This document shows, in pieces, positions 36,156-46,246 of a DNA stretch of 64,000 bases (its first letter is position 1; the number at the start of each line of letters is the position of its first letter). The stretch covers positions 392,001 to 456,000 of the forward strand of contig NZ_AP021888.1 of the NCBI RefSeq assembly GCF_011398155.1, read 5' to 3'. The notes under the pieces were generated by a model, which was not told the origin of the DNA, did not search any database, and was given only the letters and a program-made list of their open reading frames with translations. Source of the stretch: Thiosulfativibrio zosterae. GTDB lineage: Bacteria > Pseudomonadota > Gammaproteobacteria > Thiomicrospirales > Thiomicrospiraceae. Position numbers and translations under genes: made by a program.

Positions 36156-37274
36156 ATGAAAAAAATTATAAAAACAACTATAAAAACAACCCTGGGAATA
36201 GCATCGCTATCCTTAGCCTTAGCCACTCCTAATATTTATGCCAGCGGTTCTGAAGACCCTTATATTGCAGGCTTTGAGGCTTGGGCAGCCTCTATGAAAA
36301 AAATTGGCGGAGAAAGTGCTGCGCATGGTCCTGAGCAGTATATAAAAGATGTTAAAGCGGCCATGAAGAAAGCCGGCTATATTGGTGCTGAATTGCCTAT
36401 GCCGCAAGCCACCCAAGTAACCGAAGGCGTTTATACCATTGTTGGTAGTCAAATTTGGCACAACCCGTCTAACTTTGGGTTAAACAACAATATCTCGTTT
36501 GTGATTTTTAAAAATGGGGTGTTTGTGTTTAATGCCGGTGCCAACCCTGCCATTGCATACAGCGTGCATCAACAAATTAAACGCATTACAGATAAACCGG
36601 TGAAATGGTTGGCGGTTGAAAATAATCAAGGCCATGCCTATTTAGGCGCGAGTTATTGGGTAGATGTTGGGGTTAAAAATCTCTACTCCAGCGAGTTGGC
36701 GAATGCTCAGTTCGAAGAAGCCTACGACTTTATCAAAGAAGATTGGGCAACCAAAGTTAGCCATGTTTTAACAGACCCAGCAAGAGATGTGTCGAGCCAA
36801 TTTACGACTTTCAAGGGCAAAAAGGTTATTGATTTAGGCGGTGGCGAAACGCTGGAGTTGTTAGATTTTGGCCCGGGCCATACCCCTGCTTCGACCAGTG
36901 TGTATATTCCTAGCAAAAAAGTTTTCTTATCGGGCGATTTAGCGTTTAACGAGCGTATGCCGGTCATGTTTAATTACACCAATAGTTTTGATTGGATGAA
37001 ATCGTTTGAAGCCATGATGAAAACCATCCCACAAGACAGCTTTGTGATTCCTGGGCATGGCACACCCACCGATATGGCGACCATCAAAAAACAAACTTAC
37101 GATTACTTCCGCTATGTACAAAAAGAAGTGCAAAAAGTGATTGATGCTGGCGGCAAGCAAGAGCAAGCAGAGATGGTAGATCAGTCTATGTATCAAGACA
37201 GACCGGTGTTTGAGCAAGCGGCGCGTAACAATGCGCGTCGTATTTATATTGAATTAACGGGTGGTGATTTTTAA
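36156..37274 (+). CDS. Exported metallo-beta-lactamase-fold protein with altered zinc site 1
   Basis: Secreted protein of 372 residues with a signal peptide (about 1-29, ending NIYAS). The MBL fold is clear: NISFVIFKNGVFVFNAGANP, then GPGHTPASTSVYIP, FLSGDLAFNERMP and IPGHGTPT supply the later histidine, aspartate and histidine. The expected HxHxDH loop reads VENNQGHAYLGA, so the first zinc site has at most one histidine left. The protein may bind a single metal or be non-enzymatic. It resembles periplasmic MBL proteins of the SoxH/quinoprotein-relay type, a loose comparison. AGAGGAGG precedes the ATG, indicating strong translation. A terminator carrying a split iterated palindrome follows. 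Confidence 0.82.
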   Translation: MKKIIKTTIKTTLGIASLSLALATPNIYASGSEDPYIAGFEAWAASMKKIGGESAAHGPEQYIKDVKAAMKKAGYIGAELPMPQATQVTEGVYTIVGSQIWHNPSNFGLNNNISFVIFKNGVFVFNAGANPAIAYSVHQQIKRITDKPVKWLAVENNQGHAYLGASYWVDVGVKNLYSSELANAQFEEAYDFIKEDWATKVSHVLTDPARDVSSQFTTFKGKKVIDLGGGETLELLDFGPGHTPASTSVYIPSKKVFLSGDLAFNERMPVMFNYTNSFDWMKSFEAMMKTIPQDSFVIPGHGTPTDMATIKKQTYDYFRYVQKEVQKVIDAGGKQEQAEMVDQSMYQDRPVFEQAARNNARRIYIELTGGDF

Positions 37275-37385: not shown

Positions 37386-38327
37386 TTATAACCGATCCAT
37401 TAAATTAGGGTCTTGAATATAACCCCCTTCAACGCCTTTGGTGACGATGGCAACCGCGTCATGCGGATGCAAGCTTTCTAAATGGTTCACTCGAATCCAA
37501 AAATCTTGGAAATGGTCATTGGTTAAAAATTGCGCCTGTAAACGACGCGCCGCATCTTCACAAAACATTAGGTTTGAAGCATTTAATCGGGCAAACTCTT
37601 GCTCATCTTCGCGTTTAACCGTGGCTTGCACCGGCGTTTGCACAGCATCTTCAATGGCATTAATCACACCTGAAATATCCAAAGATTGTTCATTGGCTAA
37701 CTTCAATTTGACCTGCGCATACGAACGCTGGCTGTGCGGCGTGGCGCAAATGCCTTCGGGCGAGCCCAGCCAATCCACCACGGTTTGGTAATCTAGGGTT
37801 TGCTTGGCAAACTGTGCTTCAAAGGCTTCTTGAATCAATTGGCGCGATAGCGCCGCCGAGCAAGGGCAAGTGGAAGAATAGGGTACGGTAATGCTGATTT
37901 CACATTCAAATTGACCGTTGCGTAATTCACCACGCAAAATCGTTGGATAGTGCTTCCAGCCGCTATTGTCGCTTTTTAAAGATTTGCGACGCTCGTAATA
38001 GTCAAATTGGAATTCCACAAAGGCTTGATTGCTTAAGCCTTGATGCGAAGCTAAGAAGGCTTTAAGAATGGCTTCAATGCGTTGTGGAGATAAAGGTTCT
38101 TCTGAGCCCATTTCATCCAAAATTAAATATAAGCGCGACATGTGAATGCCTTTGCTCATGGGGTCGTCCAAACTCACATAGGCTTGCACCTGAGAAGACA
38201 ATTCACGATGAATATTGGCGGTGCTGATAAGAATAGGCAGTTCGATGCCACTCATTCCGACCCAGTTGAGTTTTCCTTGCGGGCCTTGATGGGGCTGGCA
38301 GGCGATATCGGGCATGTGCTTGGTCAT
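37386..38327 (-). CDS. folE2: GTP cyclohydrolase FolE2
   Basis: GTP cyclohydrolase type IB of 313 residues, making dihydroneopterin triphosphate for folate. SLDDPMSKGIHMSRLYLIL, FQFDYYERRKSLKSDNSGW and YSSTCPCSAALSRQLI are signatures of the COG1469 enzymes, including the metal-site cysteine. FolE2 works with several metals and commonly backs up zinc-dependent FolE in zinc shortage, under Zur control (established in several bacteria). ATG 38327 is chosen as AAGGAAA lies upstream. The preceding gene is a COG0523 GTPase, a frequent FolE2 companion, and a 17-base palindrome lies in between. FolM for a downstream pterin step is at 45542. Confidence 0.95.
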   Translation of the reverse strand: MTKHMPDIACQPHQGPQGKLNWVGMSGIELPILISTANIHRELSSQVQAYVSLDDPMSKGIHMSRLYLILDEMGSEEPLSPQRIEAILKAFLASHQGLSNQAFVEFQFDYYERRKSLKSDNSGWKHYPTILRGELRNGQFECEISITVPYSSTCPCSAALSRQLIQEAFEAQFAKQTLDYQTVVDWLGSPEGICATPHSQRSYAQVKLKLANEQSLDISGVINAIEDAVQTPVQATVKREDEQEFARLNASNLMFCEDAARRLQAQFLTNDHFQDFWIRVNHLESLHPHDAVAIVTKGVEGGYIQDPNLMDRL

Positions 38328-38429
38328 GCAATTTCCTTCGACTTGTGGGCTAGAAAGCATTCATAAGCGCAGGAAAAGCGCTTGAAATTCTAGCCAAAAA
38401 TAAATAAGTAAGCCATTTTAGCAGACTTG

Positions 38430-41081: not shown

Positions 41082-41453
41082 TTAATGTTCACACACTTTA
41101 CAGCTGGCTGCGGCTTGTTGAGCTTGTTCTCTGGCTATGAGTTTTGCCAAGTCGCTTTGGGTGCTGGGCAGTTTAGCTAGGGTGTTTTTTAACACTTCCA
41201 GGTTAAGAGGGGTGAGCGCATTTGGCAGTAATTGATAATGCATCCAAGCCCCTTGTCGAAAGGAATCAATAATCTGGGCATTTTTTAAATAGGCCAAGTG
41301 GCGTGAAACGGTGCTTTGACCTGCCTCTAAAATTTCCACCAGTTCACACACGCACAAACTGTCGCGTTGCATCAGTAGGTGCAACACTCGAATGCGTAAA
41401 GGTTCGCTGAGCGCTTTAAAAAATTGACAGTAAGTTTCAAGGTTATCGGTCAT
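41082..41453 (-). CDS. arsR: ArsR/SmtB-family arsenic-responsive repressor
   Basis: Winged-helix repressor of 123 residues. FFKALSEPLRIRVLHLLMQ opens the fold, SLCVCELVEIL carries the CVC trivalent-arsenic site of ArsR, and GQSTVSRHLAYLKNAQI is the recognition helix. The C-terminal SCKVCEH adds another CxxC. Arsenite binding would release it from DNA. ATG 41453 gives a normal N-terminus; an upstream TTG at 41483 would overlap the operator. It is divergent from the permease, thioredoxin fusion, GAPDH and ArsJ genes, which I expect it controls through the site at 41489-41517. Confidence 0.92.
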   Translation of the reverse strand: MTDNLETYCQFFKALSEPLRIRVLHLLMQRDSLCVCELVEILEAGQSTVSRHLAYLKNAQIIDSFRQGAWMHYQLLPNALTPLNLEVLKNTLAKLPSTQSDLAKLIAREQAQQAAASCKVCEH

Positions 41454-41488: not shown

Positions 41489-41517
41489 TTGCTAATATCT
41501 GCTTATGCGGATATGAT
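41489..41517 (+). promoter_or_regulatory. Promoter of the arsenic operon with ArsR operator in the spacer
   Basis: -35 TTGCTA (41489-41494) and -10 TATGAT (41512-41517) have a 17-base spacer. The spacer is nearly filled by ATATCTGCTTATGCGGATAT (41495-41514), a 20-base imperfect palindrome with arms ATATC and GATAT, where bound ArsR would block RNA polymerase. The expected transcript start, near 41524, supports the GTG at 41558 as the permease start. Confidence 0.75.
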
Positions 41518-41557: not shown

Positions 41558-42520
41558 GTGTTTCAACAACTGGGAAATTGGGTTGCATTTGACGCTTTGG
41601 GTTTAGAGCCGGCCAGTGCGCTGGCTCAGGCGGTACAGTTTTTTGTGATGGATACCGCCAAAATCTTTGTGATGCTGGTGGTGATTATTTACCTAATGGG
41701 GTTGTTGCGGGCGTTTGTGTCCACTGAAAAAATTCGCCAGGTGGTGGCGGGCAAACCCTTATGGATGGGACGCAGTTTGGCGATAGGGCTGGGCAGTGTG
41801 ACGCCTTTTTGCTCTTGTTCATCCGTGCCGTTATTTATTGGGTTTGTTGAGGCGCGCATTCCGTTAAGCATTACTTTTGCATTTTTAATCGCCAGCCCCA
41901 TGATTAACGAGGTGGCTGTGGTGTTATTAATCGGTATTCTTGGTTGGCAGGTCGCCGCTTTATATGTGTTGGCAGGCGTAGTGGTGGCTTATGTGGGGTC
42001 AGTGGTGATGGGTTGGCTTAAGCCCGAACGCTGGGTTGAGGCTTATGTGTGGGACATTAAAGCCCGCAAGATGGCGGAGCAGCAAGCTTTGCAGTCGGGT
42101 TGGCAACAACGCCATGTGTTTGCATGGCATGAAGTTAAAGTGATTGTAAAACGCATTTGGCATTGGGTGTTTTTGGGCATTGCCGTTGGCGCAGCATTTC
42201 ATGGTTATGTGCCGCAAGCTTGGGTCACGGAACATCTGGCCGATGCCCATAATCTTTGGTCTGTGCCAGCAGCGGTTCTGTTGGGTATTCCACTTTATTC
42301 AAATGCCACCGGGGTGATTCCAATTGTGGAAGCCTTGTTGAATAAAGGCGTGCCGATTGGCACTAGCTTGGCTTTGATGATGAGTATTGCCGCCTTGTCT
42401 TTGCCCGAGTTATTGATTTTGCGCCAAGTCATTCGTTGGCCAGCTTTGGCTTGGTTTGTTGGGATTTTAGCCCTTGCGTTTATGCTGGTGGGTTTTGGAT
42501 TTAATTTTTTATTTCATTAA
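41558..42520 (+). CDS. ArsP/DUF318-type permease
   Basis: Membrane permease of 320 residues with about eight helices. SVTPFCSCSSVPLFIGFVEARIPL... is interrupted here for brevity: its CSCSS cysteine cluster, followed by FLIASPMINEVAVVLL, is the signature of the permease family that includes ArsP, which exports trivalent organoarsenicals, and some copper/zinc-linked members. A second half repeat has IPLYSNATGVIPIVEALL. GTG 41558 is preferred, because AAGGGAG is five bases upstream and the promoter predicts a start near 41524; upstream ATGs would be outside the transcript. It is the first gene of the arsenic operon, and the Cys-rich thioredoxin fusion follows after 17 bases. Confidence 0.87.
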   Translation: MFQQLGNWVAFDALGLEPASALAQAVQFFVMDTAKIFVMLVVIIYLMGLLRAFVSTEKIRQVVAGKPLWMGRSLAIGLGSVTPFCSCSSVPLFIGFVEARIPLSITFAFLIASPMINEVAVVLLIGILGWQVAALYVLAGVVVAYVGSVVMGWLKPERWVEAYVWDIKARKMAEQQALQSGWQQRHVFAWHEVKVIVKRIWHWVFLGIAVGAAFHGYVPQAWVTEHLADAHNLWSVPAAVLLGIPLYSNATGVIPIVEALLNKGVPIGTSLALMMSIAALSLPELLILRQVIRWPALAWFVGILALAFMLVGFGFNFLFH

Positions 42521-42537: not shown

Positions 42538-43167
42538 ATGACAATTCAAGGTAATAAACCCTTGCGTTTTTTTGCAGCCGCTATGTTTATATTAACGGTT
42601 GTTGCCCATTTATTAGGGCAGGTTAATTTGCTGGAGGCTTGGATGCTTTGGCCTATTTTGTTGATGAGTGTGAATGCGTTTCAAGCCTCTTTTACGGGCT
42701 TTTGCCCGATGTTTAAAAATGCCAAAGGTGAATGTATTGGGTGTGGCACAACTTGCAGCACAGCCAGCTGTGCGCCAGCATCAACCAATGCAGCCGCTGC
42801 GGGTTGTTGCGCGGGTGAAACCAAAACCGCTTTTTGTGATGACTCGGCCAAAGGGTGCTGTGACTCAGAAACGCCCAAAATAGCAGAAGCTTCAAAAACA
42901 GGGTGCTGTGGCACTCAAGCGCTTGAAGTCAAAGTGTTGGGCACTGGCTGTGCAAATTGTGAAAATACCGCCAAACTCATCCAAAAAACGGCTGATGAGA
43001 TGGGCGTTGCCATTACCTTGGTTAAGGTTGAAGGCGTTGCAGACATCGCCAGTTATGGCGTGATGTCTACGCCTGCGGTGGTCATTGGCGAGCAAGTGGT
43101 GCATTCTGGTGGTATTCCTGCCAAACCCCTTGTGCAATCTTGGTTAAAACCTCAAGGTTGTTGTTAA
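42538..43167 (+). CDS. DUF2892-like membrane domain fused to Cys-rich linker and small thioredoxin
   Basis: Protein of 209 residues with an unusual fusion. Residues about 5-60 form a two-helix membrane domain ending FTGFCPMF, as in the YgaP/DUF2892 family. Residues about 60-130 are a linker holding GECIGCGTTC, ASC and three GCC motifs. From about 132, LEVKVLGTGCANCENTAKLI and STPAVVIGEQVVHSGG form a redox-active-disulfide thioredoxin domain with a CxxC site; the end is QGCC. I count 16 cysteines. Small thioredoxins of this type commonly accompany ArsP-like permeases and ArsR. The linker could capture arsenite or relay thiols at the membrane; this is inference. ATG 42538 has GGAGAGAG upstream. 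Confidence 0.85.
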   Translation: MTIQGNKPLRFFAAAMFILTVVAHLLGQVNLLEAWMLWPILLMSVNAFQASFTGFCPMFKNAKGECIGCGTTCSTASCAPASTNAAAAGCCAGETKTAFCDDSAKGCCDSETPKIAEASKTGCCGTQALEVKVLGTGCANCENTAKLIQKTADEMGVAITLVKVEGVADIASYGVMSTPAVVIGEQVVHSGGIPAKPLVQSWLKPQGCC

Positions 43168-43227: not shown

Positions 43228-44253
43228 ATGAAAATTCGCATTGCCATTAATGGGTTTGGCCGCATGGGGCGTTTGGCCATGAGAGAGGTCTATGATTGGC
43301 CGAATGTGCAAGTGGTGCATATTAACGAAATCGCTACTGATGTGGTGGGATCGACGCATTTATTAAGTTTTGATTCAGCGCATGGACGCTGGTGGCACAA
43401 ACCCGAAGTGGTGGATGGTGGCTTTTTGGTCGATGAGGATTTTATTGGTTACTCCAGCGTTAAGAATATCGCCGATTTTGATTGGGGCGCACTCAATGTG
43501 GATGTGGTGATTGAAGCCACAGGCAAATTTCGCACCCTAGATACTGTGGGCGAATATCTCAAGCAGGGCGTTAAACAGGTCGTGGTGGCCGCGCCCATGA
43601 AAGAAGGCGTTAAGAATATAGTGATGGGGATTAATGACTCGGTGTTTGAAGCCGGCAAAGACCCGATTATCACCGCCGCTTCTTGTACCACCAACTGCAT
43701 CGCACCGGTGATTAAAGTCATGCACGAAAAAATCGGGATTAAACACGGCATGATTACCACCATGCATGACCGTACCAATACCCAAAAAGTGGTCGATCAC
43801 GGTCATAAAGATTTGCGCCGGGCGCGTTCTAGTTTTGAATCGCTTATTCCCACTTCAACCGGTTCAGCTTCGGCAATCGGTTCTATTTTCCCTGAACTGA
43901 ATGGCAAGTTGAACGGGATTGCGGTGCGCGTGCCTTTAATGAATGCATCCTTAACCGATTTGGTGTTTGAGATGCAACGCGAAACCTCAGTCGAAGAAGT
44001 GAATGGGTTTTTAAAAGAAGCCTCAGAAACCTACTTGGAAGGTATTTTAGGGTTTGAGGAACGCCCTTTGGTGTCGGTAGACTTTGAAGGCGAAACCAAC
44101 TCGAGTGTGATTGATGCGCTCTCGACCATGGTGGTGAATGGCACACAAGTCAAGCTGCTGGCGTGGTACGACAACGAAATCGGCTATGTCTTACGCATGA
44201 TGGAGTTGGCGGTTTCTGTGGCCGAGCAAAATCGCAAGGCGCTGCAAGGTTAA
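43228..44253 (+). CDS. ArsJ-associated glyceraldehyde-3-phosphate dehydrogenase
   Basis: Type I GAPDH of 341 residues. NAD site [14 protein letters not shown], catalytic cysteine in [10 protein letters not shown], histidine region [10 protein letters not shown] and C-terminal [12 protein letters not shown] are intact. Located directly before arsJ, it fits the specialised GAPDH that uses arsenate in place of phosphate to make 1-arseno-3-phosphoglycerate, which ArsJ exports (established for Pseudomonas ArsJ operons). The alternative, a central-metabolism GAPDH, is disfavoured by the arsenic gene context. The start has GGGAG upstream. Between this gene and arsJ lies a degenerate iterated palindrome (44281-44290). 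Confidence 0.93.
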
Positions 44254-44332: not shown

Positions 44333-45517
44333 ATGAATCCCCAACAACAATATACCTTAGTGACGGCCAATTATTGGGCGTTTACCCTGACCGATGGCGC
44401 TTTGCGGATGTTGGTGTTGCTGTATTTTTATCAGTTGGGTTATTCGCCTTTGCAAATTGCAATGTTGTTTGTGTTTTATGAGTTTTTTGGGGTGGTGACC
44501 AATTTATTGGGCGGCTATTTAGGCGCTCGTTTGGGGCTGAATGTCACCATGAATATTGGCTTGAGCTTGCAGGTGTTCGCGCTGGTGATGTTAACCGTGT
44601 CGCCAGAGTGGCTAACAGTGGTTTATGTGATGGTTGCGCAAGCCTTGTCGGGGATTGCTAAAGATCTCAATAAAATGTCCGCCAAAAGCAGTATTAAAAG
44701 TTTGGCATCAGATGCTAATGGCCAACTCTTTAAGTGGATTGCCTTGTTAACTGGCTCTAAAAATGCACTCAAAGGCATTGGCTTTTTTATGGGCGCTGTG
44801 TTGCTAGAGTGGCTTGGGTTTGCAGATGCCATGTGGTTTATGGCAGCCATGCTTGGCATCGCTTTGTTGGTGTCGTTGTTTGCATTGGATGGACAATTAG
44901 GCAAGGCTAAAAATAAGCCAAAGTTTTCTGAGGTGTTTTCAAAATCGCCAGCCATTAATTGGCTGTCAGGCGCGCGATTCTTTTTGTTTGGGGCGCGTGA
45001 TGCATGGTTTGTGGTGGCCTTACCGCTCTATTTGCAGGGCGTACTGGGCTGGACTCACTGGGAAGTGGGGGCGTTTTTAGCGCTGTGGGTTATCGGTTAT
45101 GGGTTTGTTCAGGCGCTGACACCAAGCTTGCTCAGATCGCAAGGGTCGCCCACTAAAAATACCGCTTATCAATTAGCCTTGCCGTTGATGTTATTGCCCT
45201 TGGGTATGGCATGGTTGTTGGATTGGCAGCCGCAAACGGTTTTGTTAATCGGCTTAGGACTATTTGCATTGTTGTTTGCGCTAAACTCTTCGGTTCACTC
45301 TTATTTGATAGTGTCTTATGCCGATGCCGATGGCGCCTCGCGCGATGTTGGATTTTATTATATGGCGAATGCCGGCGGTCGTTTGCTGGGCACGGTCTTG
45401 TCTGGTTATGTTTATCAAGTTGCTGGATTAGAAGCCTGTTTGCAGGTGAGTGCGCTGATGGTACTGTTGGCGGCGATTTTGGTGGCTAGAGTCCCATCCA
45501 AAAATCCAGTAAACTGA
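44333..45517 (+). CDS. arsJ: Organoarsenical efflux MFS transporter ArsJ
   Basis: Major-facilitator transporter of 394 residues with about 12 hydrophobic spans. The opening YTLVTANYWAFTLTDGALRM, ALSGIAKDLNKMSAKSSIK and GARDAWFVVALPLYLQ are features I associate with ArsJ, which exports 1-arseno-3-phosphoglycerate; the product then falls apart to arsenate outside. The paired upstream GAPDH makes that substrate, so the two together resist arsenate. AAGGACG precedes the ATG. folM follows 24 bases downstream, possibly by read-through. Confidence 0.93.
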   Translation: MNPQQQYTLVTANYWAFTLTDGALRMLVLLYFYQLGYSPLQIAMLFVFYEFFGVVTNLLGGYLGARLGLNVTMNIGLSLQVFALVMLTVSPEWLTVVYVMVAQALSGIAKDLNKMSAKSSIKSLASDANGQLFKWIALLTGSKNALKGIGFFMGAVLLEWLGFADAMWFMAAMLGIALLVSLFALDGQLGKAKNKPKFSEVFSKSPAINWLSGARFFLFGARDAWFVVALPLYLQGVLGWTHWEVGAFLALWVIGYGFVQALTPSLLRSQGSPTKNTAYQLALPLMLLPLGMAWLLDWQPQTVLLIGLGLFALLFALNSSVHSYLIVSYADADGASRDVGFYYMANAGGRLLGTVLSGYVYQVAGLEACLQVSALMVLLAAILVARVPSKNPVN

Positions 45518-45541: not shown

Positions 45542-46246
45542 ATGTTACAGGATGCAGTTCTCATCACCGGTGCCGGACAGCGCATTGGGTTTTATTTGGC
45601 AGAAGCTTTTTTGCAACGCACGACGCATCCGGTGGTGTTTACCTATCGCACCTATCGCCCCAGTGTACAAGCCTTGCTAGATCAGGGGGCGATGGGGTTT
45701 CAGGTGGATTTTACCGATGACCTGGCAGTACAAGTTTTTTTGCAAGATTTTTTAGAACAGGTGAGCAGTTGTCGCGCGGTGATTCACAATGCCTCGATTT
45801 GGGCTCGCGAGTCGCAGTTGTTTGAACAACCGCATTTGTGGCAAGACATGATGGCCGTGCATGTGCGAGCGCCTTATTTAATTAACCAAGCCTGTGAGCC
45901 TTTGCTGAAAGCGGGCAGTCATTTGCCCAGCGATATCATTCATATCACCGATGCCAAACTTAATGAAGGCCAAGCAGACCAAGTGGCCTATTTAGCCAGC
46001 AAAGCAGCATTGCATTCCATGACTTTATCCTTTGCCAAAGCACTTGCGCCAGCGATCAAAGTCAACGAAATTCAACCAGGCCTGGTTATTTTTAATGAAA
46101 ATGATGACGAAAATTACCGCCAAAAACGCCTTGCTGAAATGTCTATTCCCACTGAACCCGGAGCAGAAACCATTTGGCAAATGGTGCAAACCCTAATGGC
46201 ATTGCCCAATACCACTGGCTCTGCCTTTAGATTATCCAATGATTAG
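45542..46246 (+). CDS. folM: Dihydromonapterin reductase FolM (SDR family)
   Basis: Short-chain dehydrogenase of 234 residues. The NADPH loop ITGAGQRIGFYLAEAF, the arginine in FTYRTYRP that favours NADPH, NAS(I)W in place of NNAG, and catalytic tyrosine/lysine in YLASKAALHSMT are visible. The YRTYRPSV, SDIIHITDAKL and FNENDDENYRQ segments match FolM, which reduces dihydromonapterin and has dihydrofolate reductase side activity. It fits with FolE2 elsewhere in the window. A GGGAGAG site precedes the ATG. It holds one exact CCAGGCCTGG and overlaps the convergent rluF by 4 bases. Confidence 0.9.
   Translation: MLQDAVLITGAGQRIGFYLAEAFLQRTTHPVVFTYRTYRPSVQALLDQGAMGFQVDFTDDLAVQVFLQDFLEQVSSCRAVIHNASIWARESQLFEQPHLWQDMMAVHVRAPYLINQACEPLLKAGSHLPSDIIHITDAKLNEGQADQVAYLASKAALHSMTLSFAKALAPAIKVNEIQPGLVIFNENDDENYRQKRLAEMSIPTEPGAETIWQMVQTLMALPNTTGSAFRLSND
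46076..46085. repeat. CCAGGCCTGG iterated palindrome inside folM
   Basis: Exact copy within the 14-base symmetric AACCAGGCCTGGTT, in frame as Pro-Gly-Leu-Val and followed by ATTTTTAA as at intergenic copies. Confidence 0.9.

Follow-up and report, generated by a model that had tools for sequence, protein, structure and literature searches.

The second gene of the ars operon of Thiosulfativibrio zosterae encodes a single chain in which a two-helix membrane anchor is joined to a CxxC thioredoxin domain of the MTH895/ArsE family through a cysteine-rich linker, and the adjacent cysteine (CC) pairs of this linker are selectively conserved. The gene was found in a stretch of 64,000 nucleotides (NZ_AP021888.1, positions 392,001 to 456,000), which we call the window. 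We propose that the fusion, tethered to the membrane, acts as a scavenger of arsenicals and as a thiol relay together with the permease ArsP, encoded just upstream, and we regard this proposal as evenly poised between right and wrong.

Many bacteria have a thioredoxin next to ArsP, and the fusion tethers this ArsP partner to the membrane and adds a conserved dithiol arm to it. As the tether and the arm are combined in one gene, a chaperone role of ArsE-like proteins becomes directly testable. An initial reading of the DNA made without database searches (the sequence-only reading) took the three-part fusion not to have been described functionally. This stands for the fusion with its conserved CC-pair linker, of which no description turned up in a literature search that covered few subscription papers. 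It does not stand for the thioredoxin family, which has been known in ars operons as redox-active disulfide protein 2 since 2010 (PMC2963123) and is named ArsE by NCBI. A thioredoxin-like gene beside arsP was also reported in ICEpMERPH in 2019 (PMC6947025).

Architecture of the fusion protein

The reading frame starts with an ATG at 42538, which has the ribosome-binding site GGAGAGAG just before it, and its stop codon ends at 43167 (Table 1). Residues 9-60 match the YgaP-like_TM profile PF11127 with a marginal score (26.0 bits; cut-off 25.3), and the same domain was found in 16 of 20 fusion orthologues at an E-value of 0.001 or better. Residues 130-204 match PF13192 (79 bits) and the "MTH895/ArsE family" model TIGR00412 (79.5 bits against a cut-off of 62), and the latter is matched by all 20 orthologues. 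The MTH895 structure (1ilo) matches the thioredoxin domain both by sequence and by fold (TM 0.79 on target length), and the fold matches also include the Trx-ArsC structure 2ipa.

An AlphaFold2 model built from 37 sequences contains helices at residues 7-25 and 37-53, disorder at residues 72-123 (pLDDT <50) and a confident thioredoxin fold from residue 129. The domain profiles and the model agree on the three-part chain that had been read from the letters alone. Positively charged residues are located before the first helix (in sequences with a well-placed start) and behind the second, and the loop between the helices has none. This charge pattern predicts that both ends of the hairpin, and hence the linker and the thioredoxin domain, are cytoplasmic.

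Table 1. Features of the fusion gene and of the surrounding ars operon, in window coordinates
Feature	Position	Strand	Basis or remark
ArsR/SmtB-family regulator, divergent	41082..41453	-	PF01022 52.6 bits; NF033788 85.7 (cut-off 55)
Inverted repeat ATATCTGCTTATGCGGATAT, candidate ArsR operator	41495..41514	+	Palindrome; overlaps promoter-like site 41489-41517
ArsP-type permease, TPFCSCSSVP motif	41558..42520	+	PF03773 212 bits
Fusion protein, 209 aa	42538..43167	+	Gene 2 of ars operon
YgaP-like two-helix membrane hairpin, then GFCP	42556..42696	+	PF11127; helices in model
Disordered Cys-rich linker (aa 57-126), CC at aa 90-91, 107-108, 123-124	42706..42915	+	pLDDT, orthologue conservation
Thioredoxin domain of the MTH895/ArsE family, active site CANC (aa 138-141)	42922..43149	+	TIGR00412, 1ilo
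C-terminal CC pair (aa 208-209)	43159..43164	+	Cys positions
ArsJ-associated glyceraldehyde-3-phosphate dehydrogenase (GAPDH)	43228..44253	+	NF033735 514 bits, cut-off 450
ArsJ organoarsenical efflux MFS transporter	44333..45517	+	NF033734 585 bits, cut-off 400

The ars operon

The operon has the order arsP, fusion, ArsJ-type GAPDH gene and arsJ, with arsR divergent from it. The arsenic context claimed by the sequence-only reading is borne out by the profiles, as ArsP_1, the ArsJ-associated GAPDH and ArsJ pass their curated cut-offs and the divergent regulator is of the ArsR family, its sequence showing the CVC of the metalloid-binding helix. The arsR open frame extends to 41483, with the ATG at 41453 being the likelier start. 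The arsP frame is listed from 41465, but translation more likely starts at an in-frame GTG at 41558, which fits the orthologue length of about 320 residues. The permease belongs to the ArsP_1 family by its PF03773 match and by a C(S/T)C motif that lies within a transmembrane segment, and its TPF-CSC arrangement is that of ArsP cluster 2, which is characterised by C(S/T)C and "tPF" (PMC4435449).

The palindrome ATATCTGCTTATGCGGATAT occurs at a single site in the window (about 0.05 expected). Of 21 orthologous arsR-arsP regions, about 10 contain the same motif, and the palindrome is a good candidate for the ArsR operator.

On the two sides of the operon lie genes for FolE2 (37386-38360; 326 bits, cut-off 215) and a FolM-like dihydromonapterin reductase (45542-46246; 276 bits, cut-off 249). 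Of the 35 fusion loci described below, 18 have FolE2 within the stretch that was fetched and 10 have FolM. This folate link may be functional because folE has been reported as an arsenic resistance gene (PMC9144182). Separately, the window has a SoxH-like MBL-fold gene about 5 kb further upstream (36156-37274), and in relatives an MBL-fold hydrolase-like gene is often found between arsR and arsP or near the fusion (L042:5719-6654, L034:9248-10249, L051, L053).

Cysteine pairs of the linker

The fusion contains 16 cysteines (residues 56, 66, 69, 73, 78, 90-91, 100, 107-108, 123-124, 138, 141 and 208-209). The sequence-only reading had counted all of them to the linker, which actually holds about 11 (residues 66-124); C56 ends the second transmembrane helix, two form the thioredoxin CxxC and two the C-terminal CC. 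This last pair is absent from most orthologues, and CC123-124 is invariant across the 20 orthologues that were aligned.

The four CC pairs of the window protein exceed those of its own shuffles (p = 0.008). In the linkers of 35 orthologues, which are 50-98 residues long and contain 7-20 cysteines and 2-9 CC pairs each, we counted 163 CC pairs compared with about 46-52 in shuffles, an excess of more than 20 standard deviations. A check on linker cysteine conservation, which the sequence-only reading had proposed, thus came out in favor of selectively conserved CC pairs. In the same linkers, CxC is absent (about 51 expected) and CxxC occurs only 9 times (about 51 expected). This pattern speaks against a metallothionein or a zinc ribbon, both of which we rejected, and fits a dithiol site for trivalent arsenicals.

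For pairs of orthologues with a thioredoxin identity of at least 70%, linker cysteines are identical in 86% of cases compared with 24-69% for other residues, as scored by a simple identity alignment of orthologues that are non-independent samples. Among 673 background ORFs taken from the flanking loci none has three or more CC pairs, whereas 26 of the 35 fusions have at least four.

Distribution and neighbourhood

The fusion is carried by 36 of 63 genomes of the window's own family, all from sulfur-oxidising bacteria, and no full-length match was found beyond this family in 369 genomes of the class and 398 of the phylum. Neighbourhoods were counted for the 35 fusions with fetched flanks. In 34 of them arsP lies directly upstream on the same strand, with a gap of typically 19-120 bp as measured from tblastn ends, and the lone exception is a draft genome that has arsP on another contig. 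The arsenic linkage for which the sequence-only reading suggested looking in other genomes is therefore present there. Within 7 kb of the fusion, ArsR was found in 29 of the 35 loci, GAPDH in 27 and ArsJ in 25. Eight loci have neither GAPDH nor ArsJ nearby, and the arsenic links that remain in these are arsP, some ArsR and one ArsB; ArsB is located directly downstream of the fusion in the ArsJ-less locus L046. In two loci, L057 and L061, arsP and the fusion are separated by a solo YgaP-like anchor that belongs to another subtype (at 7.2-8.2 kb), so that the operon encodes two anchors.

Neither Acr3 nor ArsB scored above its cut-off in 33 of the 36 fusion-bearing genomes, and in Fisher's test the association of the fusion with a lack of Acr3/ArsB does not reach significance (p = 0.084). 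The window's own genome has no Acr3, ArsB or ArsM above the cut-off and contains a glutaredoxin-type ArsC homologue that falls just under its cut-off.

No plasmid copy of the fusion was found, and the plasmids have the solo thioredoxin only. Similar thioredoxins are present on 139 plasmid records, many of them from Citrobacter and Klebsiella, and the one record that was opened, an Enterobacter plasmid (L217, NZ_CP135477.1), carries a pair of permease and solo thioredoxin.

Origin of the fusion

Outside the family, the thioredoxin is encoded by a separate gene, which adjoins the ArsP gene in nearly all fetched loci. The thioredoxin gene follows arsP either immediately or after a small YgaP-like gene. 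The latter order, in which the YgaP-like gene has about 65-85 codons, was seen in about ten loci, including those of Gallionella, Thiomonas, Sulfuriferula, Igneacidithiobacillus, Tibeticola and Lysobacterales. These small proteins usually end in CC (SGSCCSK, GKSCC, DGSCCK), and both of the split homologues that were scanned score above the PF11127 cut-off (27-42 bits). The split gene orders suggest that two existing partners were fused. As judged from these sequences, the fusion appears to have joined two pre-existing partners of arsP and to have expanded the CC tail. The long cysteine linker is missing from most arsP-linked thioredoxins outside the family, and hence the basic partnership of ArsP and thioredoxin does not depend on it.

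CC pairs have apparently also been acquired by an independent route, as two solo arsP-linked thioredoxins (L192 and L201) have CC-rich C-terminal tails. In L065, L066, L067 and L070, genes for solo anchor proteins whose tails are rich in cysteine (such as ...ESCCSGSDCCGGSNKKA) are located apart from ars genes, and no consistent neighbour was found for those of L066, L067 and L070 outside the ars context.

Proposed function and alternative explanations

In the proposed mechanism, the hairpin would anchor the fusion in the inner membrane with the linker and the thioredoxin domain on the cytoplasmic side. The CC dithiols of the linker would capture trivalent arsenicals, and the ArsE-like CxxC domain would either keep these dithiols reduced or exchange the arsenical. 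The arsenical would then pass to the CSC motif of ArsP and be exported, where both the direction of transfer and the contact with ArsP are inferred. It may be organic, as for characterised ArsP, or inorganic arsenite. Because most fusion-bearing genomes have no Acr3 or ArsB above the cut-off, they probably export trivalent arsenicals mainly through ArsP. A more specific version of the proposal is tentative, and we lean against it to some degree: the disordered, membrane-tethered multi-dithiol arm could be a new kind of arsenic metallochaperone, trapping trivalent arsenicals and passing them on through the thioredoxin to ArsP, which would serve as the main exporter of arsenite and organoarsenite. 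To our knowledge, no chaperone is known for ArsP. It is possible, again with the balance tilted against it, that inorganic As(III) is the substrate and that the ArsP lineage, together with its fused partner, takes the place of Acr3/ArsB in arsenite export. The shortage of Acr3 and ArsB in the fusion genomes and the lack of an above-cut-off ArsM in the window's own genome point in this direction, but their absence is not significantly associated with the fusion, and the characterised ArsP proteins cited in PMC4435449 act on trivalent organoarsenicals.

The conserved thiols could be interpreted differently. If the fusion were a redox partner, the thioredoxin would donate electrons for arsenical reduction or hold the CSC motif of ArsP in its reduced state, and the CC pairs would be a disulfide reservoir or a redox switch instead of a site that binds arsenic. 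Castillo and Saier suggested that redox-active disulfide protein 2 of ars operons passes electrons to ArsC (PMC2963123), and both the genomic ArsC homologue and the Trx-ArsC fold match agree with this. However, there is no arsC among the scanned operon genes, the GAPDH-ArsJ route requires no reduction, and a reservoir has no obvious need for CC pairs with CxxC depleted, which leaves this explanation doubtful. The cysteines also do not by themselves specify arsenic, as CC pairs also suit Hg(II), Cu(I) or Cd(II), and the relatives of ArsP_1 include a Cu/Zn exporter family, whose model NF033936 the window permease matches below the cut-off. It is nevertheless unlikely that the fusion serves to detoxify or transfer a different soft metal (Cu, Hg, Cd or Zn) via the ArsP-family permease: most loci contain ArsR, ArsJ and ArsJ-type GAPDH, L046 has its ArsB, and the linker lacks a CxC- or CxxC-rich pattern. 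It is very improbable that the linker cysteines are mere low-complexity drift in a spacer whose function is limited to tethering. Such drift would suit the variable length and CC number of the linker, but cysteines are its best conserved residues and are paired far beyond chance, and one pair is invariant. We rejected drift on the excess of CC over shuffles and on this conservation.

Comparison with known systems

The C-terminal domain of the fusion is a member of the MTH895/ArsE family above the cut-off. Members outside the window's family are mostly solo proteins of 76-100 residues, whereas here the domain is attached to an anchor via the CC-pair linker. The fusion shares with the YgaP-like TM proteins (PF11127, DUF2892) a hairpin of two helices, the second of which ends in GFCP. 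In YgaP itself, the hairpin is joined to a rhodanese, and in the fusion it is joined to a thioredoxin instead. The SAO system resembles the operon in combining a thioredoxin-like protein (SaoT) with an ArsP_1-type permease (SaoE), and weak matches of both kinds were obtained here. However, the permease scores 105.5 bits against the SaoE cut-off of 325 and the SaoT model is found in only 2 of 20 fusions, and we rejected membership in this system. The name that NCBI gives to the thioredoxin family includes ArsE, which connects it with ArsEFG (Chen, Zhang and Rosen 2019, as cited in PMC9144182); no sign of ArsF was seen here.

The closest precedent for the proposed function is ArsD, whose Cys12, Cys13 and Cys18 form an As(III) site that it requires to act as a metallochaperone (PMC4562236). 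The fusion is similar to ArsD in its adjacent cysteines, its location in an ars operon and the proposed delivery to a pump. It is not an ArsD, as no ArsD domain was matched in Pfam or NCBIfam at E-values up to 0.1, and it has no ArsA partner. Instead, it carries multiple CC pairs in a disordered tethered linker, and its partner would be ArsP.
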